A DNA stretch of 64,000 bases. Origin: Acholeplasma equirhinis (GTDB taxonomy: Bacteria > Bacillota_I > Bacilli_A > Acholeplasmatales > Acholeplasmataceae). Location of the stretch: the NCBI RefSeq assembly GCF_017052655.1, contig NZ_JAFIDC010000001.1, positions 1-64,000 on the forward strand. Direction: 5' to 3'. Within the stretch, counting starts at the first letter, position 1, and the number at the start of each line of letters is the position of its first letter. Below the pieces are notes generated by a model. That model saw only the letters and a program-made list of their open reading frames with translations. It made no database searches and was not told the origin of the DNA. Below, one piece after another: positions 34,561-57,834 of this stretch. The position numbers and the translations under genes were made by a program.

Positions 34561-35342
34561 TATTTATCCTTGGCATCTTAATTGGCAGTTTCCTAAATGC
34601 ATTTATCTACCGTATACCTAGAGGTATTAAAATTTCAACAGGTAGATCTCAATGTACACATTGCCATAAAGAACTTAAATGGTATGAACTCGTACCAGTT
34701 TTTAGTTATATATTTTTAAGAGGTAAATGTTCTGGTTGTGGTGAAAAGATTTCAATTCTTTATCCGATAACAGAACTTTTGACTGGAGTGTTATATTTAT
34801 TTACTCATTTAATATTTGGATTCCAAATAGAATTCTTTATTTATGTTTTAACAATTACTGTAATGATTCCAATTATAAGAATTGATTATGAACATAAATA
34901 TATTCCAGATAGATTAAATCTTTCCATTTTAGTATTAGGTCTAATATATACAATTCATCAAGCATTTACAGATTTAAACATTCTATGGATAAATGGACTA
35001 GGGTTTTTAATTGGTGCTTTAATCATATTTATAGTGAGATGGATTGGACAACAGATTTATAAAAGAGAAGCGATGGGTTTTGGTGATTTAAAACTCTTAG
35101 CTGCACTTGGAATGCTCATTGGTTGGCAAGGTGTTATCTTTACATTCTTAATTGGATGCATTATTGCATCAATTATAGAAGTAACTTTAATTGCAGTTAA
35201 AGTAAAACAAAGAGATAGTGAAATTGCATTTGGTCCATATTTAGTATATGCTGCAATCATTTATATGTTCTTTGGTGAAACACTTATTAATTTCTATATG
35301 GATTTATTAGGAGGTGTGCTCTATGCCGTATTACACTTATAA
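34533..35342 (+). CDS. Prepilin peptidase / N-methylase (PilD/ComC type)
   Basis: An integral membrane aspartyl protease of about 269 aa that cuts the prepilin leaders. The zinc motif is CTHC near residue 41 with CSGC near 65. The two catalytic Asp residues are in RIDYEHKYIPD (near 117) and GFGDLKLLAALG (near 182). Start choice is open between ATG 34533 and ATG 34548. Both overlap the previous gene and neither has a clear ribosome binding site, so translation is likely coupled. It supports a functional pilus or pseudopilus here. Confidence 0.92.
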   Translation: MDYDTMGVLIFILGILIGSFLNAFIYRIPRGIKISTGRSQCTHCHKELKWYELVPVFSYIFLRGKCSGCGEKISILYPITELLTGVLYLFTHLIFGFQIEFFIYVLTITVMIPIIRIDYEHKYIPDRLNLSILVLGLIYTIHQAFTDLNILWINGLGFLIGALIIFIVRWIGQQIYKREAMGFGDLKLLAALGMLIGWQGVIFTFLIGCIIASIIEVTLIAVKVKQRDSEIAFGPYLVYAAIIYMFFGETLINFYMDLLGGVLYAVLHL

Positions 35343-36528: not shown

Positions 36529-36540
36529 GGTGGTGACTAT

Positions 36541-39945: not shown

Positions 39946-41349
39946 ATGAACATCTACGAATTACTAGGCGTTGAATCTTCAGTCGCCATTACAATTATAT
40001 CTATCGGTCTTATGTTATTCTTAGGTTTCTTAATGACTAGAGTCACTAAGAAACTTAGACTTCCAAATGTCACTGCATATATCGTCACTGGGATTTTAAT
40101 TGGACCTTATGTCTTAAACCTGATTCCAAGAGAAGTTGTTACTGGAATGGACTTCCTTGCAGATATTGCGCTTGCATTCATTGCATTCTCAACGGGTGAA
40201 TTCTTCAAATTCGCAGTCTTGAAAAAGAATGGAATGAAAGTTGTGATTATTACTTTATTTGAGTCATTACTCGCAAGTATCTTAATCTTTGTTGTAACAT
40301 TCTTTTTCTTAAAAATGAATTTAGCATTCTCAATCGTACTTGCAGCACTTGCAGCTGCAACAGCACCTGCATCAACAGTTATGACAATTCGTCAAACTGG
40401 TGCTAAAGGAGACTTCGTTGATACTTTAATTCAAGTTGTTGCACTGGATGATGTTGTTGGACTTGTTGCGTATTCAATTGCAATCTCAATCGCAGTAGCA
40501 AGCCAAAGTGGAGGGGCTATCTCAATTGTTGAAATTGGGTTACCAATCCTACAAAATCTTGCAATGGTCGTTGTTGGTGGATTATTTGGATATATCCTCA
40601 AATTCTTATTAACATCAAAAAGAAGTAAAGATAATAAATTAATTATTACACTTGCATTTATCTTCCTATTCTGTGGTATTGCAGCAATCTTTGATATTTC
40701 ACCACTTTTAGGTTGTATGGCAATGGGTACTGTATATATTAATGTTACAGATGATGATAAACTCTTTAAAACAATGAATTACTTTGCACCACCAATTCTC
40801 TTACTATTCTTTGTAAGATCTGGTGTAAACTTTAATTTAAGTGCTTTAGTAAATACATCAACATTTGCAGGTACTGTTCCATTAATTGTTATTGGTATTG
40901 TATACTTTATTGTTAGAATTATAGGTAAATACTTTGGAGCTTATACTGGAGCTGCAATTGCTGGTAAGTCTAAAGAAGTTAAAAACTATTTAGGCTTAGG
41001 ATTAATTCCACAAGCAGGGGTAGCAATTGGGCTTGCTGCACTTGGTGCACGTGTCCTTGGAGGAGAACAAGGTCAAGCACTTGAAACAATCATTCTTGCA
41101 TCTTCAGTTCTTTATGAACTCATTGGACCAGCTTGTGCTAAGTTATCACTTTATCTATCTCGTTCATATCATAGAGAAGAAAGACTTAAAGAACAAGTTG
41201 CATCAGCACCACTAACTAATCCACTTGGTGAAACTAAACAAAATGAATTAGCATTCACTGAAGCTGCAATTGAGCACCAAGAAGTAGCACCAGTTAAACT
41301 TGATAATGATTCAAAAATACCACTTGAAGAAGTAGAAGTAAAATCTTAA
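39946..41349 (+). CDS. CPA2-family Na+(K+)/H+ antiporter
   Basis: A 467-aa membrane protein with about 12 helices. Typical CPA2 sequences are LPNVTAYIVTGILIGPYVL at the start, FSTGEFF, AAATAPASTVMTIRQTGAKG, and LDDVVGLVAYS, which carries the ion-binding Asp pair. The C-terminal tail of about 60 residues is acidic and soluble, without a TrkA-N domain. It exchanges protons for Na+ or K+. A paralogue lies at 57835, on the other side of the island. A terminator follows at once. Confidence 0.9.
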   Translation: MNIYELLGVESSVAITIISIGLMLFLGFLMTRVTKKLRLPNVTAYIVTGILIGPYVLNLIPREVVTGMDFLADIALAFIAFSTGEFFKFAVLKKNGMKVVIITLFESLLASILIFVVTFFFLKMNLAFSIVLAALAAATAPASTVMTIRQTGAKGDFVDTLIQVVALDDVVGLVAYSIAISIAVASQSGGAISIVEIGLPILQNLAMVVVGGLFGYILKFLLTSKRSKDNKLIITLAFIFLFCGIAAIFDISPLLGCMAMGTVYINVTDDDKLFKTMNYFAPPILLLFFVRSGVNFNLSALVNTSTFAGTVPLIVIGIVYFIVRIIGKYFGAYTGAAIAGKSKEVKNYLGLGLIPQAGVAIGLAALGARVLGGEQGQALETIILASSVLYELIGPACAKLSLYLSRSYHREERLKEQVASAPLTNPLGETKQNELAFTEAAIEHQEVAPVKLDNDSKIPLEEVEVKS

Positions 41350-41503: not shown

Positions 41504-42157
41504 GTGTATATAGATTGTTTCAAAGAAGCGTATGAAAGAGAGTATTTGTTTAGAACCTTCAAAGATGATCCGTATGATGAAGATGATTATGAATTCGGAA
41601 ATATTCTGAGATACATAAACAAGACTTATAAAATCTCCACAATACAACTTGCAAATCGACTGAACATCTCGAGACAAACTCTACATAATTACTATAATAG
41701 ATCGACAATGGAACTTCCAAAAATCATCAAAGATAAAATTATTGTTCTATATGGTTGTGACTCATTTGATGATTATCTGAAAATAGAGTTTGTAAATAGT
41801 ATTAAACAATTGATCATAGATGATTTGGATGATAAAGTTCAATCAGAGGATCAGTTTAAAAAAATTAAAGATGAATTGAAATATTATTTTCAAATAACAA
41901 AAAGCACTTATGGATATCGAATTAGTTTAAAAAACCAATTTGATTCGAGTAGAAGATGGAAAAGAGTAAAACTTAATTTAGATAATAAGCAAATCTTTGA
42001 TCTTGAAAAACACATAATAGCAAATGAATTCTTAATAAACAATTCAAATGAGTATCTTTTAAAACTATTTAATCAACTAGATAAATTGGAACCTAATAGT
42101 CAACGTCTCTTAAATTACATTTCACGACTCAATAAAGAGGTGAATAATGGTGATTGA
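41504..42157 (+). CDS. HTH DNA-binding protein, first gene of the island
   Basis: A 217-aa protein that starts at GTG with GGAGGGG 6-7 bases upstream and a TGATATAAT extended -10 at 41467. A helix-turn-helix is visible near residues 42-66 (ISTIQLANRLNISRQTLHNYY), of the XRE or homeodomain-like kind. The rest is helical and charged. It overlaps the nuclease gene by 11 bases. It may be the regulator or the DNA-recognition part of the cassette that follows. Confidence 0.72.
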   Translation: MYIDCFKEAYEREYLFRTFKDDPYDEDDYEFGNILRYINKTYKISTIQLANRLNISRQTLHNYYNRSTMELPKIIKDKIIVLYGCDSFDDYLKIEFVNSIKQLIIDDLDDKVQSEDQFKKIKDELKYYFQITKSTYGYRISLKNQFDSSRRWKRVKLNLDNKQIFDLEKHIIANEFLINNSNEYLLKLFNQLDKLEPNSQRLLNYISRLNKEVNNGD

Positions 42158-43109
42158 TGATTCAAGATTAGAAGTTAATCTTTTGAAATTATTAGATGAT
42201 TTTGAACGTTTAGGTGAGAAGGCATATTTTAAGTCAATTAGAACTGTACTTAGAGGTGGACGAGGTGAGAGGGCAGACCTTTTCTTGCAATCTAGAGCAT
42301 TTAACCAAGCACCATCAATCACAGCTTATGAACTAGAAGATTTACTGAATAGACTATTTTATCAAAAAAAGATAATTATACTTAAAAATGAATCAAATGG
42401 TAGGCTTTATTATAGACGAACGCATCCTGACCATATTGATGGATTAATTTGTTTTGATCAATTACTAGGTATCAACACTAAACCATATGATCAAATTGAT
42501 GAAACTCTCTTCAAAGGACTTCCAATGAGAGGTTTAGAATCATCAACTGTGACATCCAACAAGCAGTTCATCGATTGCAATACACTTTTAGGCGTTGAGA
42601 CGATTTTTACAGAGTCTGAACTTGAAAAAGAATTCATTCAAGAAATTTCTAAGATTCAATATGCAATTCGTATTAAAGAGCAGCCTAGAACAATAGCATA
42701 TACTTCAAACGGTAGAATTTACACACCAGATTTCTTAATTCAAACTTATCAAAATAGGTTAGTGTATGTTGAGGTTAAAGCATACAATGAAATGACCGTA
42801 TACAAAAACTTATTAAAACTTGAAGAATTAAAAGAACAAACTATACTTGAAGATGCCGGAGTCGTCATGATTTCAAAATACAAGAATGAATGGATCAATT
42901 TAGAAGATATTAGATCCTTAACTATGAATCAAGAATTAGAAACTGAAGTATTAAAAAATCTTAATAAAAAAAACAAGTTCACTAAACAAGATTTAGATGC
43001 ATTAAAGGGGAAGATTGATTTCGAAGAGTTAGACATTCATAAAATAATTCTGCATCATAATCTTAAGCGCAATTTCGCATTCTACAAATTCGAGATAACA
43101 AAAATTTAG
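42147..43109 (+). CDS. TnsA-like PD-(D/E)XK endonuclease protein
   Basis: A 320-aa protein. A nuclease core is visible from about 165 to 260: a conserved Glu helix (LEKEFIQEI), then YTPDFLI near 191 (catalytic Asp), then VYVEVKAYN near 207 (the E-x-K pair). This order and spacing is like the TnsA N-terminal domain or homing-type nucleases of the PD-(D/E)XK superfamily. The first 90 residues look like a winged helix (LEDLLNRLFYQKKIIILK). There is no TnsB or TnsC nearby, so it is not part of a complete Tn7-type transposon. A defence role is inference. Confidence 0.68.
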   Translation: MVIDDSRLEVNLLKLLDDFERLGEKAYFKSIRTVLRGGRGERADLFLQSRAFNQAPSITAYELEDLLNRLFYQKKIIILKNESNGRLYYRRTHPDHIDGLICFDQLLGINTKPYDQIDETLFKGLPMRGLESSTVTSNKQFIDCNTLLGVETIFTESELEKEFIQEISKIQYAIRIKEQPRTIAYTSNGRIYTPDFLIQTYQNRLVYVEVKAYNEMTVYKNLLKLEELKEQTILEDAGVVMISKYKNEWINLEDIRSLTMNQELETEVLKNLNKKNKFTKQDLDALKGKIDFEELDIHKIILHHNLKRNFAFYKFEITKI

Positions 43110-43120
43110 GGAGGGATACC

Positions 43121-43912
43121 ATGGGGAAAGTATTCAATCTTAACATACCAAAAGACATGTATCATATTACTGACGAGTACATGTCAAAACAAAGAAACCT
43201 TAAGAGTGTAAATATCCATTCTAAGGTTAAAAAACTTGATCACGGTGCATTTTTTAATCAAACAAAACTTAAGAAGGTATATATTGAAGCAGGAAGTAAC
43301 ATTACTGTCATACCAGTTGGTTGTTTTGAAGGATGTACAGAATTAGAGAAAATAAAACTTCCTAACCAACTGATTACTATACAAAAGCATGCATTTAAGA
43401 ATTGTACATCAATTAAAGAACTGAGAATTCCAGATGAGGTCGTTTCGATTGATCCGAATGCATTTGATGGTTGGAAAGAAGATCAAGTCATTATCTCACC
43501 AATACAAATAAAACAACCAATAACTTGTAAAGCTCAAATCTACTATGACGAAGAAGAGTTCTTAGAACATAAGAAAGTCGTAAGAGATAAACATGGAATA
43601 AATTACTATTTAGTGACAGTAAAGTGCGGTCATGTTGGTAGAGATAAATATATGCCAATTACCTTTCCAGTGATGGCACATGATAGAAAACAAGCATCCG
43701 ATATTGCTAGAGTATTTCCAAGAGTTAAAAAAGATCACCCAGATGTTGTCATCAGTGCAGAATTAGTTACTGAAGAACAATACTATAAACAAGTTGAAGA
43801 AAATAATAAAGATCCATACCTACACATTAAAAGGAAGATGGACCAAAAGAAAATCATGGATTTAATTGAACATCGATTAGTGCTGGAAACAAATTATAAA
43901 AGAAGAAATTAA
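43121..43912 (+). CDS. Intracellular LRR_5 protein with a CGHVG-type C-terminal domain
   Basis: A 263-aa protein without a signal peptide. Residues about 20-125 are BspA-like LRR_5 repeats (KVKKLDHGAFFNQTKLKKV, LITIQKHAFKNCTSIKEL). These repeats are usually on secreted proteins, so a cytosolic one is odd. The second half is a compact domain starting YYLVTVKCGHVGRDKYMPI and containing ARVFPRVKKDHPDVVI. I do not know its function. The Cys-His pair and basic patch could suit nucleic-acid or metal binding. It sits 11 bases after the nuclease gene with its own GGGAGGG site, so it belongs to the same cassette. Confidence 0.68.
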   Translation: MGKVFNLNIPKDMYHITDEYMSKQRNLKSVNIHSKVKKLDHGAFFNQTKLKKVYIEAGSNITVIPVGCFEGCTELEKIKLPNQLITIQKHAFKNCTSIKELRIPDEVVSIDPNAFDGWKEDQVIISPIQIKQPITCKAQIYYDEEEFLEHKKVVRDKHGINYYLVTVKCGHVGRDKYMPITFPVMAHDRKQASDIARVFPRVKKDHPDVVISAELVTEEQYYKQVEENNKDPYLHIKRKMDQKKIMDLIEHRLVLETNYKRRN

Positions 43913-44265: not shown

Positions 44266-44287
44266 AAAGAGCAGCAATGCTCTTTTT
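44266..44287 (+). terminator. Intrinsic terminator of the HTH-nuclease-LRR cassette
   Basis: AAAGAGCA pairs with TGCTCTTT around a GCAA tetraloop (GNRA), followed by T residues. Confidence 0.88.
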
Positions 44288-44337: not shown

Positions 44338-44367
44338 TTTTCATTTATATAATATAAATGATACAAT
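44338..44367 (+). promoter_or_regulatory. Promoter of MORC-Z1 cassette
   Basis: TTTTCA at 44338-44343 and TACAAT at 44362-44367 are 18 bases apart. The start of transcription would fall on the operator-like core at 44376. Confidence 0.5.
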
Positions 44368-44404: not shown

Positions 44405-45886
44405 ATGGCAAAATATATCGAGAATTTACCTAATGCAGCTACTCTTATAAGTTCAATGCGACATATAGGGTATGATTTTGAAACTGCTATAGCAGATATC
44501 ATAGATAATTCAATTTCGGCAAATGCCAAAAAAGTAGATTTGTTTTATCCTGTCAATAAGAATGAAAAATTATATCTTACCATTATTGATGATGGTAATG
44601 GAATGAATAAGGCAGAACTTATTGAAGCAATGAGATTTGGTAGTATTAAGGAACAAGAACGAAAACCTGATGATTTAGGTCGTTTTGGTTTGGGATTAAA
44701 AACAGCTTCATTATCTCAATGTAAAAAAATGACAGTAGTCTCCAAATCTAATGACGGTATTAACGGATATACATGGGACTTAGATGTTATTATCAAAAGT
44801 AAAAAATGGGATTTACAAGAATTAGAAATCGATGAAATTTTAAGGCTTCCAAATTTGTCAAAGTATTTAGATTTAGTCTCATTTACATATGTCTACTGGG
44901 ATAATTTTGACACACTTGAAAAAGATATTACTATTTTTGAGCAAGATATACATGATGTATTTACCAAAAAGATTGCATCTTTAGATAAGCATTTGTCACT
45001 TGTTTTTCACAGATATTTAGAGGAGAATCTTGAAATAAGTATTAACAAGCGATCGATTACGCCTGTTGATCCATTCTTAAAATCACACCCTAAAACAATA
45101 ATGAAGGATGAAGTTTTAATTCAAACTGCAACATCTTCTGGAGAGAAAGAAATTGTTAAGATGCAAGCATTCGTCTTACCGTATCATAAGTATCTTATGG
45201 AGAAAGATTATGAAAAACTTGGTGGTAAAGACGAAATTGATAGTCAAGGATTTTATATTTATAGAAACAGAAGATTAATGATACATGGAACTTGGTTTAG
45301 AATCAAGCCTAAAGCAGAGTTATCACGGAATGCTCGAATTAGAGTCGATATTCCTAATACCTTAGATGATATATGGTCGATTGATATTAAAAAACAACAA
45401 GCAGTTATTCCTGGTAAGCTATTAAATTCTCTAAAAAAAGAAATAAGTGAAGCAATTGAAAAATCAAAACGAATTTATGAATATAAAGGAACAGTTGAAA
45501 CAAAAAAAGGGTCTGTTTGGAATAAACGTGCAAATTTAAGAGATGATCAAGCATTCTATGAAATAGATCGAAATTCCCCTATTTTAAAAAAATACATAGA
45601 TAGAATGGATGAACGATTCATTCAAGAGTTAGATAAAATTTTTTCTATTATTGAATTATCAATTCCTTATAATGACATTTATAATTCTGTCGCAAATAAA
45701 AAAGAGATTAATCAAGCTAATGATAATGATCTGGATCTAATAATATCTCAAGCATATCAATGGGCATTAGAATTAAAGGGGACAACAAAAGATTCCATTC
45801 ATCAAGTAATTGATGAAATTTGTTCATATGAACCATTCGCAAGTTCAAATATTAAAGGCAAGTTATTGGAGAAATTTAATGGATGA
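44405..45886 (+). CDS. MORC/MutL-like GHKL ATPase
   Basis: A 493-aa protein with an N-terminal Hsp90/MutL-type ATPase. Motif I is AIADIIDNSISANA near residue 31, motif II DDGNGM near 61, motif III GRFGLGLKTAS near 91. The region after it, with YRNRRLMIHGTWFRI and RIRVDIPNTLDDIWSIDIKK, is the S5/transducer-like part typical of bacterial MORC-type ATPases. These are known from restriction-modification-like operons with Z1 helicases, as comparative genomics by Iyer and Aravind described. It is thought to act as an ATP-driven DNA clamp. It overlaps the Z1 gene by 8 bases. Confidence 0.88.
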   Translation: MAKYIENLPNAATLISSMRHIGYDFETAIADIIDNSISANAKKVDLFYPVNKNEKLYLTIIDDGNGMNKAELIEAMRFGSIKEQERKPDDLGRFGLGLKTASLSQCKKMTVVSKSNDGINGYTWDLDVIIKSKKWDLQELEIDEILRLPNLSKYLDLVSFTYVYWDNFDTLEKDITIFEQDIHDVFTKKIASLDKHLSLVFHRYLEENLEISINKRSITPVDPFLKSHPKTIMKDEVLIQTATSSGEKEIVKMQAFVLPYHKYLMEKDYEKLGGKDEIDSQGFYIYRNRRLMIHGTWFRIKPKAELSRNARIRVDIPNTLDDIWSIDIKKQQAVIPGKLLNSLKKEISEAIEKSKRIYEYKGTVETKKGSVWNKRANLRDDQAFYEIDRNSPILKKYIDRMDERFIQELDKIFSIIELSIPYNDIYNSVANKKEINQANDNDLDLIISQAYQWALELKGTTKDSIHQVIDEICSYEPFASSNIKGKLLEKFNG

Positions 45887-48593
45887 TAAAACTTTAAACT
45901 CAATAGTTCAATTATTTAGATCATTTTATGATCTCGACTTTTTGAAAGGTAAATATACAAGTTATAATGATGAAGTTTTTTATGATTTGTTAAGCAAATA
46001 TCAGCGTATTAACCCCTATGAATCATTAACGGAAAATGAAATTAAAGAGCTAAAAAAGAAAATAGATTCAGAATTTTTGATTTTTCTACCAGATGGATAT
46101 GTTTTATTAAATGATTACGAGCATGAAAGGGACTGGTATACAAAAGAAAAATCTAATATCAAACATTTTTATTGGAATAGATATAGAAATTATTTATATA
46201 AACAAAAATGGAGTACAGCAGTTTTAGATAAATTAGAATTTAATTTGGATAAAATGGTTAATTTATTAGGAGATCCTTCATCGTCTGAACAGTTCAAACG
46301 ACGTGGACTTGTTATGGGGGATGTACAATCAGGTAAAACATCAAATTATATTGGTTTAATTTCTAAAGCAGTTGATGCAGGATATAAAGTTATTATTTTG
46401 CTCTCTGGTGTAACCGAATCACTTCGTGAACAAACTCAAATTAGAGTAGAAGAAGGTTTTATTGGGTATGATGTTTATAATAAAAGCTGGGTTGGAGTCG
46501 GATTAGAACACGATGAAAATACTGAAATACCTCATTCTATAACCTCAAGAAAGAATGATTTTACAGGTACTCGTGGTGAAAATACTACCATGCGTATTAA
46601 TCCAAAATCGAACACACCACATATATTTGTTACTAAAAAGAATGCAAATGTATTATCTAAAATTAAAGACTCACTTAGAAATATAAATATCCAACCACCA
46701 AATAAATATATTAATTCGTCATTGTTAATTATTGATGATGAGGCTGATAATGCATCAGTGAATACCAACGATCCAGGATATGATCCAACACGTATCAATA
46801 AAGAAATTAGAGAAATTTTGGATTTATTCACTAAAAGAAATTATGTAGGATTTACAGCTACACCTTTTGCTAACATTTTTATTGATCCGGATAGTGTTGA
46901 TGAGATGTTAGGTGAGGACTTGTTTCCAAATGATTTTATTTACGTATTAGATCCACCATCTAATTATTTTGGATCTGAAAAATTATTTATCAAATCGAAT
47001 CGAAATGTTCAATTAATAAAAGACAGTAGTGACTATTTTCCATTGAATCATAAAAAAGATTGGGACGGACATGAATTGTTTGGTTCATTGACTGAAGCAA
47101 TTAATACCTTCTTACTAGCAAATGCAATTAGAGATTTAAGAGAGCAATCTTTTAAAAACTCACATAGATCAATGTTAATCAATGTTTCTAGATTTATTAA
47201 GGTTCAAAATAAAATTGAAGAAATCGTTTCAAAAAAGTTAGAGAAAATCATTTATGATGTAAGATACAGTTCAAAATTAGATTTTGATGATTACATTAAA
47301 AATGAAAATATAAGAATACTGTATGAGACATATAAAAAACATTATGTTGAAATTTATGACTGGGAAACAATTTACTCAGTTCTTTATGATTCTATTAAAA
47401 ACATAAAAATATTTAGAGTTCCAAATGAAAAAAACAAAGAAGCATTAGATTATCAAAAATATAAAGAATCCGGTTTAAGATGTATTGTTATTGGAGGTTT
47501 GGCATTATCGCGTGGATTAACTCTTGAAGGATTAACAGTAAGTTATTTATATAGAAATACTGCTACTTTTGATGTGTTATTACAAATGGGTAGATGGTTT
47601 GGTTATAGGGATAAACCAAAAGACTATGAAGATATATGTAGAATTTGGATGCTACCATCAACCAACCAATATTTTAAAGAAATTACTGAATCTATTTTAG
47701 GTTTAAAAGACGATTTAAAGAAAATGATTAAGAGTGAACTATCTCCTAAAGAATTTGGTATTAGGGTAAGAAATGAGAGCGAAGAACTAGGAATTACTGA
47801 TCGTAAGAAAATGAAAACCACTAAGAAGGTTATTCACACATATGATTTATTTGGAAGAGTATTAGAAACTCCATTCTTGAGTTCGAATGAAAAAACTATA
47901 AGAAATAACATGAGTACTACCAAAGAATTCGTGAGTAAAATAAAAAACTTTTCAGTTGAAACAAATGGTATTATTGCAAAAGATATCAACTCTGAAGAAG
48001 TAATTAGTTTTTTAAATGAATTTGAGGTTCATGAGGCTAATGTATACAATTATTTTGCTAAACATCAACTAATAGGTTTTATTCAGCAATACAAAATGAA
48101 TAAATTTGATGTAGCTGTAATCATGGGTGAAGGTGAATCATTTAAATTAGAAGAATTGGAAATCAGACCAATAACTAGAAGTTTTGGGTTCTTAAATGAT
48201 GATTGTATAAGTATTGGACGTCAAAGAAGAAGACTTGGTGGAAAAAGTGATACAAAAATAGGCTTAAATTCTATTCAAATTGCGTCATTGGGTGATTTAA
48301 CAAGAGCGTATAACTCAACTTTCATGATTAAAGGAAGAAATCCATTGCTAATTATTTATCCTATACAACTTAGAAAAGTTAAAGAGGATGATAATTCATT
48401 TGATGAATATGAAAAAAAATATGTTGATGAATATGTTGATCAATTAAGCTTACAACATTTAATTCCAATTGGTCTCGGCCTTGGTTTTCCAGCAAATGAT
48501 GAACTAACAGGATTAAAATCAATTGCATTTTATGTAAATACAAACACGAATTGGATAAATACTATGAGTATAGGAAGTGAAGAGGATGAATAG
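45879..48593 (+). CDS. Z1-domain superfamily II helicase-like protein
   Basis: The true start is probably ATG 45879 (TTGGAG 8 bases upstream, overlapping the MORC gene), giving 904 aa. Walker A is MGDVQSGKTSNYIGL near 146 and Walker B LLIIDDEADNASVNT near 283. Motif III is VGFTATPFANIF near 323. The Z1 signature GGLALSRGLTLEGL and QMGRWFGYR come later, at about 540-580. Z1 proteins are found with MORC ATPases, DUF4420 nucleases and methyltransferases. It would translocate or remodel DNA in the restriction complex. All motor motifs seem intact. Confidence 0.9.
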   Translation: MDDKTLNSIVQLFRSFYDLDFLKGKYTSYNDEVFYDLLSKYQRINPYESLTENEIKELKKKIDSEFLIFLPDGYVLLNDYEHERDWYTKEKSNIKHFYWNRYRNYLYKQKWSTAVLDKLEFNLDKMVNLLGDPSSSEQFKRRGLVMGDVQSGKTSNYIGLISKAVDAGYKVIILLSGVTESLREQTQIRVEEGFIGYDVYNKSWVGVGLEHDENTEIPHSITSRKNDFTGTRGENTTMRINPKSNTPHIFVTKKNANVLSKIKDSLRNINIQPPNKYINSSLLIIDDEADNASVNTNDPGYDPTRINKEIREILDLFTKRNYVGFTATPFANIFIDPDSVDEMLGEDLFPNDFIYVLDPPSNYFGSEKLFIKSNRNVQLIKDSSDYFPLNHKKDWDGHELFGSLTEAINTFLLANAIRDLREQSFKNSHRSMLINVSRFIKVQNKIEEIVSKKLEKIIYDVRYSSKLDFDDYIKNENIRILYETYKKHYVEIYDWETIYSVLYDSIKNIKIFRVPNEKNKEALDYQKYKESGLRCIVIGGLALSRGLTLEGLTVSYLYRNTATFDVLLQMGRWFGYRDKPKDYEDICRIWMLPSTNQYFKEITESILGLKDDLKKMIKSELSPKEFGIRVRNESEELGITDRKKMKTTKKVIHTYDLFGRVLETPFLSSNEKTIRNNMSTTKEFVSKIKNFSVETNGIIAKDINSEEVISFLNEFEVHEANVYNYFAKHQLIGFIQQYKMNKFDVAVIMGEGESFKLEELEIRPITRSFGFLNDDCISIGRQRRRLGGKSDTKIGLNSIQIASLGDLTRAYNSTFMIKGRNPLLIIYPIQLRKVKEDDNSFDEYEKKYVDEYVDQLSLQHLIPIGLGLGFPANDELTGLKSIAFYVNTNTNWINTMSIGSEEDE

Positions 48594-49500
48594 TTATGAC
48601 TCTAAATCAAAATTTAATCAATTTAGTTTAAATGCTCATTATTTAAGAGTTGATGAATTTCATCCTCTTGAATTATTGATTGGTTTAAACGAAAACGGAC
48701 AAAAAACCATCAGATTAAAAGGCAAATATAATAAAACTAAGCTTAAGAGTACGCGAACTATAGAAGTTAGTCATTTCATGTTAAACGATGATTTAATCTT
48801 AAGCTTTTCACTGGTAGATGATGATTATGAAGATTTGTTTTATATTTTTTGTAATGATTTAATTGATAGTAGCCGTCTAGTTTCACCAAATGATGGCTAT
48901 ACCTTTATTGTTAATAGATATGACAGGTGGAGAACTTTTGGTAGCTTTAATAGAAAATATTTATCCGAAAATGAAATTAAAGGATTATTAGGTGAATTAA
49001 TTTTCTTAAAAGAAGTATTGGCAAGAAAATATGGAATTTCATCTGCTATTGAAGGATGGACAGGACCAGAACCATTAAAAAAAGATTTTTCCTTTGAAGA
49101 TTTTTGGTATGAAGTAAAAGTGGCTAATCATGACACAGTTACGATATCCTCACTAGAGCAGTTAGATAGTGAAAATGAAGGTTACATGATTTTATATCAT
49201 TTAGAAAAGATGAGTGCAGAAGCAAAGGGATTAACTCTAAACACCGTTGTAAATGAAATCTTTAAAATGATTACTTTAGATAATGATAGACTTAACTTCA
49301 TAATGAAATTAGCTAGCGCTAATTTTTTTAGAGAATCATATTATGATCAATTTGTTTTTGTGAATAATAGAAAAGGATATTTTCGAATTAATCATAAATT
49401 TCCAAGACTAAATAGACAAGATTTACCAAATGCAATTGCGGATATAAAATATGAATTAATTATTAATATGTTAGAAAAGTTCAAGGTGGAAGAATTATGA
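48586..49500 (+). CDS. PD-(D/E)XK protein, DUF4420-like
   Basis: About 304 aa. The start may be ATG 48586 or GTG 48577, both inside the Z1 gene. The nuclease core is visible: GLLGELIFLKEV near 132 (Glu), LKKDFSF near 163 (Asp) and WYEVKVANH near 173 (E-x-K). This matches the DUF4420 family that goes with Z1 and AIPR. It is the likely restriction nuclease of the system. The ATGA overlap with the AIPR gene shows coupled translation. Confidence 0.85.
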   Translation: MNSYDSKSKFNQFSLNAHYLRVDEFHPLELLIGLNENGQKTIRLKGKYNKTKLKSTRTIEVSHFMLNDDLILSFSLVDDDYEDLFYIFCNDLIDSSRLVSPNDGYTFIVNRYDRWRTFGSFNRKYLSENEIKGLLGELIFLKEVLARKYGISSAIEGWTGPEPLKKDFSFEDFWYEVKVANHDTVTISSLEQLDSENEGYMILYHLEKMSAEAKGLTLNTVVNEIFKMITLDNDRLNFIMKLASANFFRESYYDQFVFVNNRKGYFRINHKFPRLNRQDLPNAIADIKYELIINMLEKFKVEEL

Positions 49501-51611
49501 CATTAGAACAATTTATTACTGATTTTATGGAAGAAGTAAGAAATGACGCACATATTCAAAATGATTTACCAAAAAGTGTCTTTCTAGAAAAAATGTCAGA
49601 TCAATTACAAAATATGGAGTACATATTTAATCCAACAATATTTGAATTTTTTAAACCTGGAACAAACAATAGAATAATGAAATTTGATATGTTTGCTTTT
49701 GATGAAACAGATAAATCATTAGTTTTATTGATAAATGATTTTCAAGATGTCGACTCACCTGAAACATTGACAAATTCAGATATAATTCAAATGTCATCAA
49801 GGATGTTAAATTTTTTAGAAGAAGTATATAAGGGTTCAATTTATAAATTTATAGACCCATCGCAACCTGAATATTTATTAGCAAGAGATCTACAAGACAA
49901 ACTTACTAAAGATTTTATTGATTCTAACAAAGATGAACGCATTGAGAAAATTAAACTTTTTATTATAACCAATAAGAAACTAAGTAAAATGGTGAAAACT
50001 ACTAAACTTGATGATTTTGTTGGTAAAAGAGTAGAACTTAATGTTTGGGATATCGAAAGAATCTATGCTGTCATAAATTCCGGTCGTGATAAAGAACCTA
50101 TCGAGATAGATTTTGAAAACTTAAATGGAGATGGGCTAGCATATTTAAAGGCAGAATTTAATAAAAGTGAGGATTATGAAGCATATTTGTCAATCATACC
50201 AGGCAAAGTTTTAAGTGATATATATTGGGAACATGGATCAAAACTTCTAGAAGGCAATGTCCGAGCTTTTTTAAGTTATAAAGGAAAAGTAAATAAGGGT
50301 ATTAGAAAAACTATTAAAGAAGAACCAAGCAAATTTTTTACATATAACAATGGTATCGCTTGTACTGCCAAAGAAATTGAGTTTTCTAGTGATAAAAGAT
50401 TTATTAAAAAAATTATAGATCTTCAAATTATTAATGGTGGTCAAACAACTGCATCGTTAACTTCTTCGTGGAAGGTGGATAAAGCTACTTTAGAAGATAT
50501 TTATGTACCAATGAAAATTACAGTCATTAAATCTAATAATTATGATGACATGATTCAAAATATTTCTAGATTTGCAAATAGTCAAAATAAAGTTACTGAA
50601 GCAGACTTATTCTCAAATCATCCATTCCATCGTACAATTGAAAAACTATCAAGAGAAGTACTTGCACCTCCTATGCCGGGTGAATTTCATGGGACATATT
50701 GGTACTATGAACGATCTCGAGGTAAGTATCAGCAACTTAAATTTAAACTAGACTCTACATCAAAAGTTAAGCAGTTTGAAAAGAAATATCCAAAAAATCA
50801 AGTATTAAGTAAAGAAGATTTAGCTAAGTACTTGATGGCCGGTATTTATTTACGTCCAGATTGGGTAAGTAAAGGTAAAGCTCATAATATGACCGAATTT
50901 GCAAAACGTATTGATACGCAGTGGGTAAAGGATAGAACTATATTCAATGAAAAATATTTCAAAGATGCAGTTGCATTTGCACTTTTATATAAATATGTTG
51001 ATTATTTAGTAGCACACTCTGAATGGTATCAAAAAGGTGGGGTAAAACTAAATATCGTCCCATATACAATTTCAAAACTTATGTATTTAATTCCGAAAGG
51101 ATATACAATTGATTTCAATCGTATATGGAGAGAACAGAGAATATATGATTCTTTTAAATTTGATGTAGATAAAATCGCACAATCTGCGGATAGATTTATC
51201 AATAATTCTCAAGGAGTTATTCCGACTGAAAAAGCCAAAAAAGAACAATCTTGGGAAGAATTTAAAAAAATACCATATGAATTATCTAAACCGTTCTTAA
51301 ATGATTTGATTAGTATTGATTTACAGCAAAGTGAGATTGACATAGCTAAAAAATCAGTTAAATTAGATGAAAAAATTTCTCTTGAAGTAGAAATCTATAA
51401 TTTAGCAAGAACCGAAAATGGAAAATACTGGGAAAGATTAGCCCAAGAAGGTTTAATTAGAGGAATTATTACATCTAATGAAGCAGATATTTTGAGGAAT
51501 ACGATTAGTGAATTAGGAAAAGATTCTCCAAAGAGAATTCCATCTGAATCTCAATACAAAATTGCTTGGAATGTTCGAAAAAAACTTGAAGATTCTGGTG
51601 TATTAGTTTAA
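49497..51611 (+). CDS. AIPR-family protein of the MORC-Z1 system
   Basis: A 704-aa protein of the abortive-infection phage-resistance (AIPR) family. The signature FFTYNNGIACTAKEIEF lies near 280 and LQIINGGQTTASL near 308. Its biochemistry is not settled. The family is found in phage-resistance loci and next to Z1 and DUF4420 genes. It is coupled to the nuclease gene. A second AIPR protein, only distantly alike, is encoded at 59657. Confidence 0.9.
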   Translation: MTLEQFITDFMEEVRNDAHIQNDLPKSVFLEKMSDQLQNMEYIFNPTIFEFFKPGTNNRIMKFDMFAFDETDKSLVLLINDFQDVDSPETLTNSDIIQMSSRMLNFLEEVYKGSIYKFIDPSQPEYLLARDLQDKLTKDFIDSNKDERIEKIKLFIITNKKLSKMVKTTKLDDFVGKRVELNVWDIERIYAVINSGRDKEPIEIDFENLNGDGLAYLKAEFNKSEDYEAYLSIIPGKVLSDIYWEHGSKLLEGNVRAFLSYKGKVNKGIRKTIKEEPSKFFTYNNGIACTAKEIEFSSDKRFIKKIIDLQIINGGQTTASLTSSWKVDKATLEDIYVPMKITVIKSNNYDDMIQNISRFANSQNKVTEADLFSNHPFHRTIEKLSREVLAPPMPGEFHGTYWYYERSRGKYQQLKFKLDSTSKVKQFEKKYPKNQVLSKEDLAKYLMAGIYLRPDWVSKGKAHNMTEFAKRIDTQWVKDRTIFNEKYFKDAVAFALLYKYVDYLVAHSEWYQKGGVKLNIVPYTISKLMYLIPKGYTIDFNRIWREQRIYDSFKFDVDKIAQSADRFINNSQGVIPTEKAKKEQSWEEFKKIPYELSKPFLNDLISIDLQQSEIDIAKKSVKLDEKISLEVEIYNLARTENGKYWERLAQEGLIRGIITSNEADILRNTISELGKDSPKRIPSESQYKIAWNVRKKLEDSGVLV

Positions 51612-51683
51612 ATATAATTTAAACTTTGCAATTTGAATTGAATTCTGGTATGATTTAAATAAGCAATCGGATGAGGGACAAAT

Positions 51684-52991
51684 ATGAATGTAGTTGAATT
51701 ATTTACGGGTATTGGATCACAAGCCAAAGCCTTGAGTAGAATTGCAAATAGGATGAATATCGAAGTTAACATTTTAAAGACATGTGAATGGAATATCCAT
51801 GCTATTTTAGCATACCATTTTATTCATAATGGAAGTTCCTTACCAACTGATATTCAAGTATTAGATAAAAATCAAGTGCTTGAAAAATTAAATAAATTTC
51901 CTTTAAGTGCGGATGGCAAAATAAGAATTAATCCATCTTCTCTGAAATTTTATAATGAGGATCTTTTAAAAAACATTTATCATGCTATTATTGCCAACAA
52001 TAATTTAGTTGATATCACCGAAACTAAAGGTCACGATATTCCAAACGAGACGCATCTTTTGACTTATTCATTCCCTTGTCAAGATTTATCAAACGTGGGA
52101 TCTTTCCATGGATATAAAAATGGAATTGATAGGGATAAAAATACGCGAAGCGGTTTATTATGGGAAGTTGAGAGAATATTAGAAGAGAAGGTTTTAAATA
52201 ACCAGCCTTTACCGAGATATCTTTTACTTGAAAACGTCACTGCATTAGAAGCTAAACGCCACGAAGGCAATTTTCAACAATGGAAAGAAAAATTAGAAAA
52301 ATTAGGATATATAAATAAAGTATATCGTCTTAATTCGGAAGATTTTACAATTCCTCAATATAGAAAAAGATTAATTATGTTGAGTGTATATGTAGGTGAT
52401 GATAATTCACTTAAAGATGCGATTAATAATTATTGGATTCAACATGATTTAGAAAATAGGGAATACCTCAAAACATTGAATTTAGTTAAACAAAAATTGG
52501 ATGTATTTTTAAGAAGAGATTATTCAAATTCAGTTTATTTACAAGAAGCATTAGAAGCGCAGCCAAATGCAACAAACTCACGTTTAAAAATTTGGGAATT
52601 GAATAGCAAAATTGTTAATGAAAATGATGAAGTAAATAACAGAGTCCAAACCATAACTACCAAACAAGATAGACATCCAAATTCAGGTAACTTATATTTT
52701 GATCCAAAGAATGGAAAATCAAAATATAGATTTTTAACACCAAGAGAATGTTTTATATTGATGGGGTTTGATGAAAAAGACTATGAAATTTTATTAGAAA
52801 ACAATTTTTATACACGAAAAAATTCCAAGTTTTTTTCAAGAGATGTACTATATAAACTTGCAGGGAATAGTATTGTAGTAAATGTATTAGAAGCAGTTTT
52901 TGAACAAATGGTTGAAATTGATAAATTATACTTGAGCAAAAGTATATTAGTATATAGTAGCATTAAAGATGAGGAGCATAAATTCATTTAA
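51684..52991 (+). CDS. DNA (cytosine-5-)-methyltransferase
   Basis: A 435-aa C5 methylase. Motif I is VVELFTGIGS at the N-terminus, motif IV TYSFPCQDLS near 128 (catalytic Cys), motif VI LLLENV near 181, motif VIII QYRKRL near 224, and motifs IX-X RFLTPRECFILMGF and LAGNSIVVNVLEAVFEQM near the end. It would protect the host at the site recognised by the MORC-Z1 system. The variable region gives no clue to the sequence it methylates. It lies 72 bases after the AIPR gene with a GAGGG site. The short AT-rich gap could hold a separate promoter. Confidence 0.95.
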   Translation: MNVVELFTGIGSQAKALSRIANRMNIEVNILKTCEWNIHAILAYHFIHNGSSLPTDIQVLDKNQVLEKLNKFPLSADGKIRINPSSLKFYNEDLLKNIYHAIIANNNLVDITETKGHDIPNETHLLTYSFPCQDLSNVGSFHGYKNGIDRDKNTRSGLLWEVERILEEKVLNNQPLPRYLLLENVTALEAKRHEGNFQQWKEKLEKLGYINKVYRLNSEDFTIPQYRKRLIMLSVYVGDDNSLKDAINNYWIQHDLENREYLKTLNLVKQKLDVFLRRDYSNSVYLQEALEAQPNATNSRLKIWELNSKIVNENDEVNNRVQTITTKQDRHPNSGNLYFDPKNGKSKYRFLTPRECFILMGFDEKDYEILLENNFYTRKNSKFFSRDVLYKLAGNSIVVNVLEAVFEQMVEIDKLYLSKSILVYSSIKDEEHKFI

Positions 52992-53009
52992 ATTTAAAAG
53001 GGGATTTAT

Positions 53010-53282
53010 ATGATAAGTAAAATTGAACTACAAAGCTTATTGATTGAAGCTATAATTTTTCATGGTGGAAAAGCTACAATCGTTGAAATTTGTAAATATA
53101 TATGGAACAAGTATAAAAATCAGCTAGAAAATTCTGGTGATTTACTGTATACTTGGCAATATGATATAAGATGGGCAGCAACACAACTTAGACACAAGGG
53201 AATATTAAAATCCACTAGTGAATCAAGTAAAGGCATTTGGTTTTTGTCAGAAGAATATTACAAAAAAATCCAGTCTAAATGA
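53010..53282 (+). CDS. Small winged-helix protein, Mrr-N-like
   Basis: A 90-aa protein made of one winged-helix domain: IEAIIFHGGKATIVEICKYIW forms the first helices and RHKGILKSTSESSKGIWFL the wing. This is like the Mrr N-terminal or HARE-HTH type domain that recognises DNA in restriction systems. It is 18 bases from the methyltransferase gene with AAGGGG before its ATG, so it is probably part of the same system, as a specificity or control subunit. Confidence 0.75.
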   Translation: MISKIELQSLLIEAIIFHGGKATIVEICKYIWNKYKNQLENSGDLLYTWQYDIRWAATQLRHKGILKSTSESSKGIWFLSEEYYKKIQSK

Positions 53283-53297
53283 GATTGGATTTTTTTC
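53267..53297 (+). terminator. Intrinsic terminator of MORC-Z1 cassette
   Basis: AATCCAGTCT pairs with AGATTGGATT (one unpaired position) around AAATG and is followed by T residues. The 5' arm overlaps the end of the winged-helix gene. Confidence 0.85.
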
Positions 53298-53351: not shown

Positions 53352-56300
53352 ATGATAGAAAAATCAATCGCACAAGCAATCAAGTCAGCTAAATGGTTAG
53401 CTATTGAATATAGCAATTCTAATGATGAGATTACTAAATATTGGATAGCGATTAAGGACATCAACATAAAAAGTAAGTCTTTTATTGTTGATGCTTTTAA
53501 TGTTGCTAAAATAAATAATGATACTAATGGAATTATATCGATTAGTGTTTTAATGGATAGAATCGTAAGTGCACATGTCATTGATAATACAACGTATCAG
53601 CAACCAGAAGAACTTATAGAGAAAATCCACAAAAATATTAATCAATTAGAGTGGCTTGGTTATGATTCATACAATAATCAAATATTAGACTATATCTATG
53701 AATGTATGAAACTTGAAAATATTGCATATCAAGAAGAAGTGACACTGGTTAAAGGTATAGACCAATCAAAACTTGAAGAAATTCCAACATTTAGTAAATA
53801 CGTATTAAATTTAGAACAGATCAGCCAATTAGTTAGTAATTTGGAAACACTAGCTAAGAAGGATAGTCAAAAAAAATATGAAATAGTGACTTTAGCATTA
53901 AACCTTTTATCTATTAAAACAAAAAAAGGGTTATTTGTTGTTGCATATAAAGAACTTCAATTTGATCCAAAAGAAAAATCACTCATATTAAACCCAGAGA
54001 CACTATTCAATTATGATTTTGCAAGTGAAGTAGAAGATTCACCGCATAATCTTAAACACTATTTAGATATTGAAACAGATGATTTTACCAAAATGTTCAT
54101 CGATAACCCAGGTGAAGCTAAAGATCTTTTACAAGAAGAACTATCACCCACTGAGTCATTAGATACAAGACCATATATATTTGAACTTAAAAGATCACAC
54201 TATGCACATATTGAAAGAGAATTAACGCAAATAAAGCTTGCAAAATCAAAAGATGCTTTAACAATACCTCTAGAAGCGTTCTTTGGCAATATGGATAAAT
54301 CTAAGTTAAGCAGAAAAAGGAATTTTGATGTTGTCTTAATAGATGATCGATCAAATATTGATCAGTTAAGAGTAATATATAATGCCTTAGTACAGCCAAT
54401 AACATATGTACAAGGACCTCCTGGTACAGGTAAAACAGCAACTATTATTAATACATTAATATCGGCATTTTTTAATGGGCAAAAAGCTTTAATTGCCTCT
54501 AACAACAATAAACCGATTAATGATATTTATGATAAACTTCAAAGCTTAGAAAGTTCTTACAAAAAAACAAAACTACCTCTACCTTTTTTACGTTTAGGAA
54601 ACAGGGAAGCTGTTTTGAAGAGTTTGAACCATTTAAGAGAACTTCTACCATTTATTGAAAAATATAAAATTGATGAAGAAAAATTAAACATTCATGCCAA
54701 AAATAAAAAAGACAATATGAAGGAATTGAATAGTTTAATTGATATCTACGAAGAAAGATTAGAACTCATTGAAGAAATAGACACATTAAAATCCATGTAT
54801 AAAGGATTAAAAGATTCAATGAGAAGTATAGCTATTCAATCAATTTTGAGTGAAAAAGAAGCACAGTTGAGCAAGCTTAAGGTCATACAAGATAGTGATG
54901 TAAAAAACTATATTACAAAAGCAGATAATGCTTTCTATACATGGTTATTCTTTACATCAATTAAATATTTAAAGAGAATCTTTGAACCGAAGAATGAGCA
55001 ATTATTAAATATCATTAAAAGTGAAGCGGATGATGAAAGTAGAATTAATGAATTTAATAGTTATTTACTTGAACAAGAGAACTTTAAGAACTTATTAAGA
55101 ATTTGTCCTATCATACTTACTACAAATCAATCTGCACATAGATTAGGTGAACAAACACCTTCTTTTGATTTGGTCATTCTAGACGAAGCTGGGCAATGTG
55201 CAATTGGTCCTTCCTTATTTTCGATTTCTAGAGGTCAAAGACTAATGCTTGTTGGTGATCAAAATCAATTAAAACCAGTAGTTACAATAGCACCAGAAAC
55301 AAATAGAGTTTTAGTCAATAAATTTGGAATCTCATCTGCATACGATTATTTAGAAAATTCAATTTTACTCACCATGCAAAAGCAAGATACAATATCTAAG
55401 TTTATTTTATTAAGTTATCATTATCGATCTAGAAAGGATATCATTGAATTTAGTAATAGGAAATATTATAGAGGACAACTGAAAATTGAAACTCCTGAAA
55501 ATAATCAATTACCAGATGCATTAGAATATATATCAGTTGATACGAGTGATGATAAATCTAAAGTAAAGAATGTCTCGATGAAAGAGATTGAAGCAATTAT
55601 CAATCACATTAAGAAGTCAAAGGATGAGAATATTGGTATCATCACACCATTTAGGCATCAAGCAGAATTTTTAGAGGCATATTTAAAGGACCAAGGTCTT
55701 AGCGATGTTCATTCAGGTACGATTCATACATTCCAAGGTGATGAAAAGGATGTCATATATATTTCTACTGCAGTCACCAAAAATACAAATGAAAAAACAT
55801 TTGACTGGGTAAAGAATAATCAAGAGTTATTAAATGTTGCTACTACAAGAGCAAAGAAAAAGCTAATATTAGTGTCTGATTTTTATGAGATTCAAAAACG
55901 TTCTACAATTTCTAATGACTTATATGAATTAATACAATATGTTAAGAAGCAAGGTAAAGAAGTTAAACTATCTGAATCAGAAACAACACAGTTTATTAAT
56001 GGAGCAAACTTTAAAAACTATAATACAAAAAAAGAAGAAGAATTTTTTGAAACCATTAATCATATTATGAGTCTAGGATCCAAATATATAGTTAGACAAA
56101 AAGTAAGAGTTGCAACCATCCTCGACAAATTTACCAATCCTGTTAAATATGATTATGGTTTAAAAGCAGAGTTTGATTTAGTGATTTTTAAAATATTTAA
56201 TAAATCTGAAATACCAGTACTTGTAATCGAATTAGATGGAGATGAACATCAGTCAAATATAGATGTAAAACGTAGGGATAAGTTGAAAGAAGATATATGT

Positions 56301-56393
56301 AAGGATAATAATATTCAAATTATTAGAATTAAAAATGATTATTCTCGAAGATATCTTTATATTAAAGATGTTTTATTGGAAATACTAAATTAG
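53352..56393 (+). CDS. SF1 helicase-nuclease fusion with WYL-like N-terminus
   Basis: A 1013-aa protein. The first 75 residues (IKSAKWLAIEYSNS, then YWIAIKDINIKSKSFIVDAF) look like a WYL-type ligand-sensing domain. The Upf1/Dna2-like helicase has Walker A GPPGTGKTATI near 355, motif II LDEAGQC near 609, GDQNQLKP near 634, HYRSR and THTFQGDEKDVIY-type motif V, and TTRAKKKL. The C-terminus is a PD-(D/E)XK nuclease of the DUF2726 or Vsr-like kind: AEFDLVIF near 938, then VIELDGDEHQ near 959 and RRDKLKED. Such one-gene helicase-nuclease fusions are typical of defence islands. It has its own transcription unit after the terminator at 53297. Confidence 0.88.
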   Translation: MIEKSIAQAIKSAKWLAIEYSNSNDEITKYWIAIKDINIKSKSFIVDAFNVAKINNDTNGIISISVLMDRIVSAHVIDNTTYQQPEELIEKIHKNINQLEWLGYDSYNNQILDYIYECMKLENIAYQEEVTLVKGIDQSKLEEIPTFSKYVLNLEQISQLVSNLETLAKKDSQKKYEIVTLALNLLSIKTKKGLFVVAYKELQFDPKEKSLILNPETLFNYDFASEVEDSPHNLKHYLDIETDDFTKMFIDNPGEAKDLLQEELSPTESLDTRPYIFELKRSHYAHIERELTQIKLAKSKDALTIPLEAFFGNMDKSKLSRKRNFDVVLIDDRSNIDQLRVIYNALVQPITYVQGPPGTGKTATIINTLISAFFNGQKALIASNNNKPINDIYDKLQSLESSYKKTKLPLPFLRLGNREAVLKSLNHLRELLPFIEKYKIDEEKLNIHAKNKKDNMKELNSLIDIYEERLELIEEIDTLKSMYKGLKDSMRSIAIQSILSEKEAQLSKLKVIQDSDVKNYITKADNAFYTWLFFTSIKYLKRIFEPKNEQLLNIIKSEADDESRINEFNSYLLEQENFKNLLRICPIILTTNQSAHRLGEQTPSFDLVILDEAGQCAIGPSLFSISRGQRLMLVGDQNQLKPVVTIAPETNRVLVNKFGISSAYDYLENSILLTMQKQDTISKFILLSYHYRSRKDIIEFSNRKYYRGQLKIETPENNQLPDALEYISVDTSDDKSKVKNVSMKEIEAIINHIKKSKDENIGIITPFRHQAEFLEAYLKDQGLSDVHSGTIHTFQGDEKDVIYISTAVTKNTNEKTFDWVKNNQELLNVATTRAKKKLILVSDFYEIQKRSTISNDLYELIQYVKKQGKEVKLSESETTQFINGANFKNYNTKKEEEFFETINHIMSLGSKYIVRQKVRVATILDKFTNPVKYDYGLKAEFDLVIFKIFNKSEIPVLVIELDGDEHQSNIDVKRRDKLKEDICKDNNIQIIRIKNDYSRRYLYIKDVLLEILN

Positions 56394-56408
56394 AATAAGA
56401 GGGAAAAA

Positions 56409-57588
56409 ATGAACACAGATAAAATTAGTAAACTAAAGGATGATATACAAGCAAAAATAAAAGAAATAATTTAGTGAATTGATTGATCACACAAAAAAAG
56501 ACGAAATAATAGTTGGTTTAAATTTAACTGACAGTATAGTAAATGGATTAAGTTCAGTACCAAATAATTTTGGAATTGATTTGATAGGAAAAACGATTGA
56601 TACAATTTTTGATAATACATATAAGCACTTGAGCGGTAGTATTAACCCATTTTTAGAAAAATCTTCAGTGCATACAGCAATTTCAAATTTTGATCAACTT
56701 TTTGGATATTATAGAGAGATGCAAACTCAACTGGTAAAAATTTTGATTTTAGGAAGACCTGCCAATAGTAGAGTATTACAAAAATCTAGTGATCAGCAAC
56801 TTAAATATCTTGAAGATAAACTAAACAAAAATATTACACAAATAGACAAAATATCATCATTAGCCAATGAATTTGAAGATAAACTAAAGACTACAATTGA
56901 ATCTTTAGAAGAAAAAAGGAAAAATGGAATTTCAAAGATTGATAATGATATTTCGGTAAAAAGTAAAGATTATAAAAAAATTATTAATGATACATTATTA
57001 CAAATAGATAATATCAAAACAGATTTTAGAACAGAGAAAGAAAGTTTGATAAAAACTATTTCGATAGAACTAGATGAATATAAGAATAAGGTTGAAGAAA
57101 TAGTTGGTCTAATAAATGGAAGTGCACAAGCTGGAGTGTATAAACAAACAGCAGATAAATATCAGGTAGGTAAATGGATATGGCAGATTTTATCAATAGT
57201 ATTTATTCTTTCAACAGCAACCATTGGTGTTTTAAGTATTTTTAATAATGATTTAATTGGCATTCCTAATGATTGGATACAATTAATTCTTCGTATTTTT
57301 ATTACATTAACATTAGGTTCAGCATCTGCTTATTGCGCAAGGTTAGCACATAAAAACTTTTAACTTGAATTAAGGACAAGACTTACACATCTTGATTTAT
57401 ATTCGATAGATAGTTTTATTAAAAATGCAAAAGATAAAGAAGCTATTAAAGCTGATTTAGCTAAAAAGATTTTTGGAAATTTCAATGATATTGCTGGAAT
57501 AAGTAATTCAGAGGATAGTCTTTTTCTAACTGTTGAGCAGATTGATAAATTTATTAAATTAGTTGATAAAATAAAAAAATTAACATAA
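56409..57588 (+). pseudogene. Broken coiled-coil membrane protein gene (frameshift plus TAA)
   Basis: AGAGGG precedes ATG 56409, which opens a 21-codon ORF (MNTDKISKLKDDIQAKIKEI) that ends at 56474. Removing a single base near 56469 joins it smoothly to the long frame, giving KEIFSELIDHTKKDE. The long frame then runs to TAA 57361-57363. Beyond this stop the same frame stays open for 74 more codons (LELRTRLTHLDLYSIDSF onward, then TAA 57586-57588) with normal amino-acid use. The ancestral product was about 390 aa: long coiled coil (about 100-230), then two membrane helices (WIWQILSIVFILSTATIGVL and WIQLILRIFITLTL). It looks inactivated, though a TTG-started 294-aa fragment (56479-57363) might still be made. 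Confidence 0.7.
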
Positions 57589-57672: not shown

Positions 57673-57679
57673 AGATATG

Positions 57680-57795
57680 TCGTACTCCGAATCCATTCGA
57701 GTGGGGGAACCAATTTTTTGGGGTGAATCGTATAGAAATATATGTAAGGGCACTTTAATGCTCTGAATCCGTCAGCTAACCTCATAGGAGTCATT
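57680..57795 (+). promoter_or_regulatory. ydaO/yuaA-type c-di-AMP riboswitch
   Basis: The conserved core is unmistakable: CCGAATCC, then GTGGGGGAACCAATTTTTT, GGGGTGAATCG, an AAGGGC segment, and GAATCCGTCAGCTAACCTCA followed by TAGGAG. The closing stem pairs ACTCC (57684-57688) with GGAGT (57787-57791). Riboswitches of this class bind cyclic di-AMP and usually turn off K+ uptake or turn on osmotic and export genes. No T-run terminator follows, so control may act on the ribosome binding site AAGAGGTGAT at about 57821-57830. Confidence 0.93.
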
Positions 57796-57834
57796 AAGGG
57801 ATAAAAATACACATATTTCTAAGAGGTGATACGA

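Follow-up and report, generated by a model that had tools for sequence, protein, structure and literature searches.

The mzaABCDE system, which PMC9523054 traces to Gao et al. (2020), is called validated there by Miller et al.; the passages of that paper on the first-described system list a sigma factor, MzaA, and name no methylase among the components. In the same source, as far as its outline of the types goes, Type II of Miller et al. (2022) has a core of Z1 helicase, PD-(D/E)XK nuclease and C5-methylase together with AIPR, and an associated MORC ATPase and putative transcriptional regulator (PMC9523054). The third operon type of Iyer, Abhiman and Aravind (2008) consists of a MORC, a distinct SFII helicase (DThhQXuRhFG) and an E-D-ExK nuclease, to which a cytosine methylase, Vsr or AIPR is often added (PMC2292703). 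In Listeria monocytogenes ST87, an AIPR-containing C5-methylase restriction-modification (RM) cluster has been described (PMC6929445), and ST87 strains are reported to carry a methyltransferase-encoding mza system; four Listeria strains that have such a system show extra modification at GCAGC/GCWGC (PMC10687267).

The window, i.e., the whole stretch analysed here, covers 64,000 nt of the Acholeplasma equirhinis genome. At 44405-53282 (plus strand), it harbours six intact, co-directional genes, for a MORC ATPase, a Z1 helicase, a DUF4420 nuclease, an AIPR protein, a C5-methylase and a 90-aa winged-helix protein. The first four specify full-length, remote homologues of MzaB, MzaC, MzaD and MzaE, contiguous and in the same order as in mzaABCDE, so that an MzaB-type, MORC/MutL-like GHKL ATPase is followed by Z1, DUF4420 and AIPR. 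Because their NCBIfam scores all lie far below the equivalog cut-offs (286/850, 449/1500, 87/420 and 313/1050), the window proteins are, judged by these models, distant members of the mza kind rather than orthologues of the system that was tested. The hallmarks of mzaABCDE sensu stricto, MzaA and equivalog-level similarity, are both lacking: no MzaA match was found in the operon and the neighbouring genes scanned, while a C5-methylase and a winged-helix gene are added. Z1, PD-(D/E)XK nuclease, C5-methylase, AIPR and MORC, the proteins of Type II as outlined in PMC9523054, are all present, and the combination of MORC, helicase, nuclease, methylase and AIPR is also that of the operons of Iyer et al. 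By description, the Listeria ST87 clusters share the C5-methylase and the AIPR/mza genes.

The operon thus belongs to an already described, widespread class of probable virus-defence systems and is not a new kind. A sequence-only reading of this DNA had assigned the same domains, on which Pfam, PADLOC and NCBIfam agree. It had also held the class to be known from comparative genomics; that emphasis is not supported, since the B-C-D-E genes are homologous to a system called validated in the part of PMC9523054 on mza, and NCBIfam has models for the MzaB-C-D-E homologues.

Layout and borders of the operon

The features of the operon and its borders are as follows.

44266-44285, plus strand: 5′ border, a hairpin with a T-run behind it that probably terminates the gene upstream (fold z = -3.1)
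44338-44367, plus strand: candidate extended -10 promoter, TTTTCA-18-TACAAT (consensus match only)
44405-45886, plus strand: MORC-type GHKL ATPase, MzaB homologue (HATPase_c_3 1e-36; NCBIfam MzaB 4e-85; PADLOC MzaB 3e-67)
45879-48593, plus strand: Z1-domain SF2 helicase, MzaC homologue (Pfam Z1 4e-67; NCBIfam MzaC 2.5e-134)
48577-49500, plus strand: DUF4420 PD-(D/E)XK nuclease, MzaD homologue (DUF4420 1e-49; MzaD 1.5e-24; LGE...KDF...EVK)
49497-51611, plus strand: AIPR protein, MzaE homologue (AIPR 3e-91; AIPR_N 6e-30; MzaE 3e-93; NG.QT motif)
51684-52991, plus strand: C5-cytosine DNA methyltransferase, M.MpeI-like (DNA_methylase 3e-49; full-length match to 4dkj, 2.5e-45)
53010-53282, plus strand: winged-helix protein of 90 aa, at the end of the operon (AF2 pLDDT 88.9; winged-helix PDB neighbours)
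53262-53296, plus strand: intrinsic terminator over the winged-helix stop codon, 3′ border (15-bp stem and T-run; fold z = -4.7)

All six frames are open when read with table 11. The Z1 start was taken as the ATG at 45879 (the mechanical ORF begins upstream, at TTG 45810), the DUF4420 gene starts with GTG, and a GGGG stretch precedes the ATG of the winged-helix gene. The overlaps and tight spacing pointed out in the sequence-only reading are borne out: start and stop overlap by 8 nt between MORC and Z1, 17 nt between Z1 and DUF4420 and 4 nt between DUF4420 and AIPR, and gaps of 72 nt and 18 nt separate AIPR from the methylase and the methylase from the winged-helix gene. The Pfam matches of the five larger proteins all exceed the cut-off, and the gene block with its motifs is far beyond chance. 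As regards the candidate promoter, promoter-like sites are no more frequent than in shuffles. Terminator-like sites number only three in the 16.5-kb stretch scanned, and none on the plus strand lies inside the operon other than that at 53262-53296. Because of this terminator, the transcription unit seems to close at the winged-helix gene, and the helicase gene at 53352 probably forms a separate unit; the helicase and coiled-coil genes at 53352-57363, considered as further parts of the operon, were dropped on the same ground. Insertion borders could not be defined by empty-site comparison with seven congeners, in which the flanking antiporter genes stand in different surroundings.

We consider it extremely unlikely that the locus is a functionless, decaying island. 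The absence of a winged-helix homologue from the closest same-class Z1 relatives with a complete core (loci L038, L039, L040 and L044) would fit such decay; six intact frames with their motifs, the preserved start/stop overlaps and the clean borders speak against it.

The core proteins and their relatives

All motifs quoted as intact in the sequence-only reading are indeed present (DIIDNS, DDGNGM and GLGLKTAS in MORC; GDVQSGKT and DDEAD in Z1; GE-KDF-EVK in the nuclease; FPCQ in the methylase), and 80-88 of the 88 complete relatives have them as well. In the MORC protein, the NCBIfam MzaB match spans residues 15-437, and the best PDB matches are human MORC2 and MORC3. Its GFYIYRNRRLM stretch conforms to GhXhhpXXRhl, the S5-domain signature that defines MORCs according to Iyer et al. 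2008 (PMC2292703), so that, with the GHKL motifs, the protein qualifies as a member of that family. GDVQSGKT, DDEAD and most of QMGRWFG are invariant amongst the Z1 proteins of the nearest eight relatives. In AIPR, the NG.QT motif occurs in 88 of 88 relatives, and NGGQTT, like many other residues, shows little or no variation. The AF2 model of AIPR is good (mean pLDDT 87.1) and gave no significant match in the PDB; the top hit was a ParB N-domain (E = 0.2), an insignificant resemblance that is at most a hint and from which no firm chemistry follows.

At least 558 relatives came out of the 84,980 species genomes scanned. The best 80 of these, which were retained, span Bacillota, Pseudomonadota, Campylobacterota, Spirochaetota, Bacteroidota, Fibrobacterota, Acidobacteriota, Planctomycetota and other phyla. 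Together with seven loci from genomes of the same class and 24 from viral contigs, they make up a set of 111 loci (three duplicates included), and relatives also occur on plasmids. MORC, Z1, DUF4420 and AIPR are contiguous in 97 of the 111 loci, across many phyla. Of the 64 loci that have at least 2.5 kb of flank on each side, all but one (63) have a C5-methylase no more than 4 kb away. A small protein family is found near 60 loci; its representative is Vsr (PF03852, 4e-36), a repair nuclease of a type to be expected there if the DNA is truly 5mC-methylated. In contrast to the operons of Iyer et al., Vsr is absent here, both beside the operon and genome-wide, as searched with the Pfam model.

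The position of the methylase gene varies amongst the 88 complete loci: it follows the core in 32, precedes it in 37 and is encoded on the other strand in 19. The window Z1 falls into one group (SH-aLRT 99) with loci of Bacillota, in all of which the methylase gene is downstream. Such variation would suit a separate epigenetic or orphan enzyme that merely adjoins a defence core, an explanation that we nevertheless judge very unlikely in view of the near-universal presence of the methylase and of the single transcription unit predicted here, which is not terminated until the winged-helix gene.

The pairwise distances of the four core proteins correlate with one another (rank correlation 0.58-0.77) and less so with those of the methylase (0.31-0.41). 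Since the core co-varies and the methylase does so to a lesser degree, we infer that the four core proteins would constitute a coherent machine and the methylase an exchangeable marking enzyme.

The host genome has a size of 1.45 Mb (99.75% complete) and is read with the standard code, and no penicillin-binding transpeptidase domain was found in it; these features are consistent with an Acholeplasma-like mollicute, as had been proposed from the sequence. The view that such an operon is unusual in a wall-less bacterium did not hold: Z1 genes occur in 8 of 61 near relatives (the genome itself counted) and in 30 of 395 genomes of the class, most of them of shorter or divergent Z1 types and some in genomes that read TGA as sense, and Iyer et al. 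2008 had already included Mycoplasma penetrans in their MORC/GHKL alignment (PMC2292703).

The methylase and the probable function of the operon

The PDB entry to which the methylase aligns over its full length (4dkj, 2.5e-45), described in the match itself just as a cytosine-specific methyltransferase, is M.MpeI, the CpG methylase of M. penetrans. CpG as the target, an idea taken from this homology, was dropped. The residues of M.MpeI that contact CpG have been described (PMC10899764), and those around F302, E305 and A323 are not kept: L and K stand in loop 1 and loop 2 is different, in a weak alignment of the target-recognition domains. CpG is scarce in the window (rho 0.54); stretches from the same genus are also low (0.58-0.78), and for this reason, along with the unconserved loops, we do not claim a CpG target. 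A search of 405 kb of the genome for avoided motifs, with three congeners for comparison, gave no convincing candidate: the contrasts for GGTACC, GGATCC and CCSGG were weak and multiply tested, and GCWGC was not depleted. The methylase carries a target-recognition motif, RxPNxG (TITTKQDRHPNSGN), that is present in the methylases of 17 of the 88 relatives. Amongst the nearest relatives of the enzyme, conservation is roughly equal in the recognition domain and in the catalytic part, so that this subgroup may have a common target. The recognition domain showed no strong peak of co-variation along the core proteins, where the top windows were Z1 601-640 and DUF4420 121-180 (partial correlations of at most 0.24). 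The genome includes a second C5-methylase gene (L245, 7701-8966; genome C1:703706-704959), which adjoins an apparent tyrosine-recombinase-type gene and has mobile-element-like genes near it.

The operon is probably a restriction-modification-like, anti-invader system of the mza/MORC class. This reading is suggested by the MzaB-E order, the methylase near almost every relative, the association with Vsr, the co-variation of the core proteins and the widely kept motifs, as well as by the modification found in the Listeria mza strains and the occurrence of relatives in viral contigs and on plasmids. The methylase would mark a short target in the DNA of the host. Incoming, unmarked DNA would be sensed or clamped by the AIPR/MORC part, remodelled by ATP-driven MORC closure and Z1 translocation and cut by DUF4420.

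The composition of the first-described mza system, with MzaA and, in the account given in PMC9523054, no methylase named, implies that self-recognition by the core may not depend on methylation. The lack of motif depletion, the lack of strong co-variation with the recognition domain and the Vsr-less genome also count against an RM-like function. The main rival is abortive infection independent of methylation, where a signal of infection would trigger the core, the cell would be killed or arrested and the methylase would do no more than tune or insulate the core. AIPR is named for abortive infection and the protein here also matches the AbiU model; the same account reports a sigma factor in the first-described system, and core and methylase co-evolve loosely. 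We hold this explanation to be unlikely, given that the C5-methylase beside 63 of 64 relatives, and the Vsr beside many, would be superfluous if defence were independent of methylation.

The near-constant presence of the methylase speaks for methylation as an integral part of the natural systems, and recognition by the MORC-Z1-AIPR-DUF4420 machine thereby becomes directly testable. The operon is a complete and compact copy of a widespread, mechanistically unsolved class, which bears on the action of MORC ATPases in eukaryotic gene silencing.

The winged-helix protein and the neighbouring genes

The operon's only odd part, a minor accessory variation, is the 90-aa winged-helix protein with which it ends. 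No homologue was found in the 111 related Z1 loci, for which reason the idea of a conserved component of the system was rejected; Type II, as summarised in PMC9523054, includes a putative transcriptional regulator. The winged-helix fold given in the sequence-only reading is supported by a confident AlphaFold model (pLDDT 88.9), the best PDB neighbours of which are forkhead, Z-beta, linker histone and DpnI winged-helix domains, none at E<=0.001. The family has a conserved core, YTWQYDxRW, and no match above threshold in the libraries searched (Pfam, NCBIfam, PHROGs and PADLOC), the Pfam match to Mrr_N being sub-threshold (6e-4).

The protein had been called unusual, which is right insofar as it is a rare addition to such operons; the family itself occurs elsewhere. 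Homologues were absent from the plasmid and phage records searched. One clear relative (47% identity) was found amongst 395 genomes of the class, and six in viral contigs, several of them lone genes adjoining an integrase-like gene. In genome G048, a GHKL ATPase gene lies next to the relative, which also overlaps an HNH-like gene (Pfam HNH at E = 0.002, sub-threshold). The surrounding locus, L190 (G048:C41, 464-7952), is a putative RM cassette with two C5-methylases, an NOV_C protein, an Eco57I/N6-type methylase, the GHKL ATPase, the winged-helix relative and the HNH-like gene; an integrase-like gene is found farther along.

The most economical reading is that a mobile, small DNA-binding protein has joined the operon, where it is probably a DNA-binding accessory (an operon regulator or a site reader) and not a core subunit. 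Its occurrence in the operon here and beside HNH-like and GHKL ATPase genes in G048 raises the idea that the family is a shared, portable DNA-reading accessory of GHKL/MORC-based systems, which seems to us decidedly improbable; if true, the winged helix could be the source of a specificity, for a site or a modification, that otherwise seems to be missing from the attack complex. As one with no above-threshold library match, the family is a lead.

Downstream, 53352-56393 specifies an SF1 helicase (AAA_11/AAA_12) with a C-terminal DUF2726. The helicase matches Mokosh-type models (MkoC 8e-51), and a coiled-coil protein comes after it (56479-57363); the pair looks like a second defence module. No homologue of the helicase was found beside the operons of the seven class relatives searched, which was a further ground for not counting these genes as part of the system. 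Farther on, a second AIPR protein (59657-61735; AbiU-like) has a C-terminal HRDC domain, and its 44%-identical relative in congener G007 (L054) lies just upstream of a different methylase-GHKL-Z1 cluster.

A c-di-AMP riboswitch (57675-57805; RF00379, 94.5 bits) is located directly 5′ of a Na+/H+ exchanger gene (57826-59169), and a second exchanger gene of the same Pfam family (39946-41349) is extant across the island. The product of 42147-43109 has a TnsA-like endonuclease N-terminal domain (3e-6, above the cut-off) and a sub-threshold DUF790 match; TnsB and TnsC were not noticed beside it, its neighbours being an HTH gene (41504-42157) and an LRR_5 gene (43121-43912). The PilC/T2SSF- and PilB/T2SSE-like genes at 35314-38205 suggest a type IV pilus or competence-like machinery in this wall-less bacterium.
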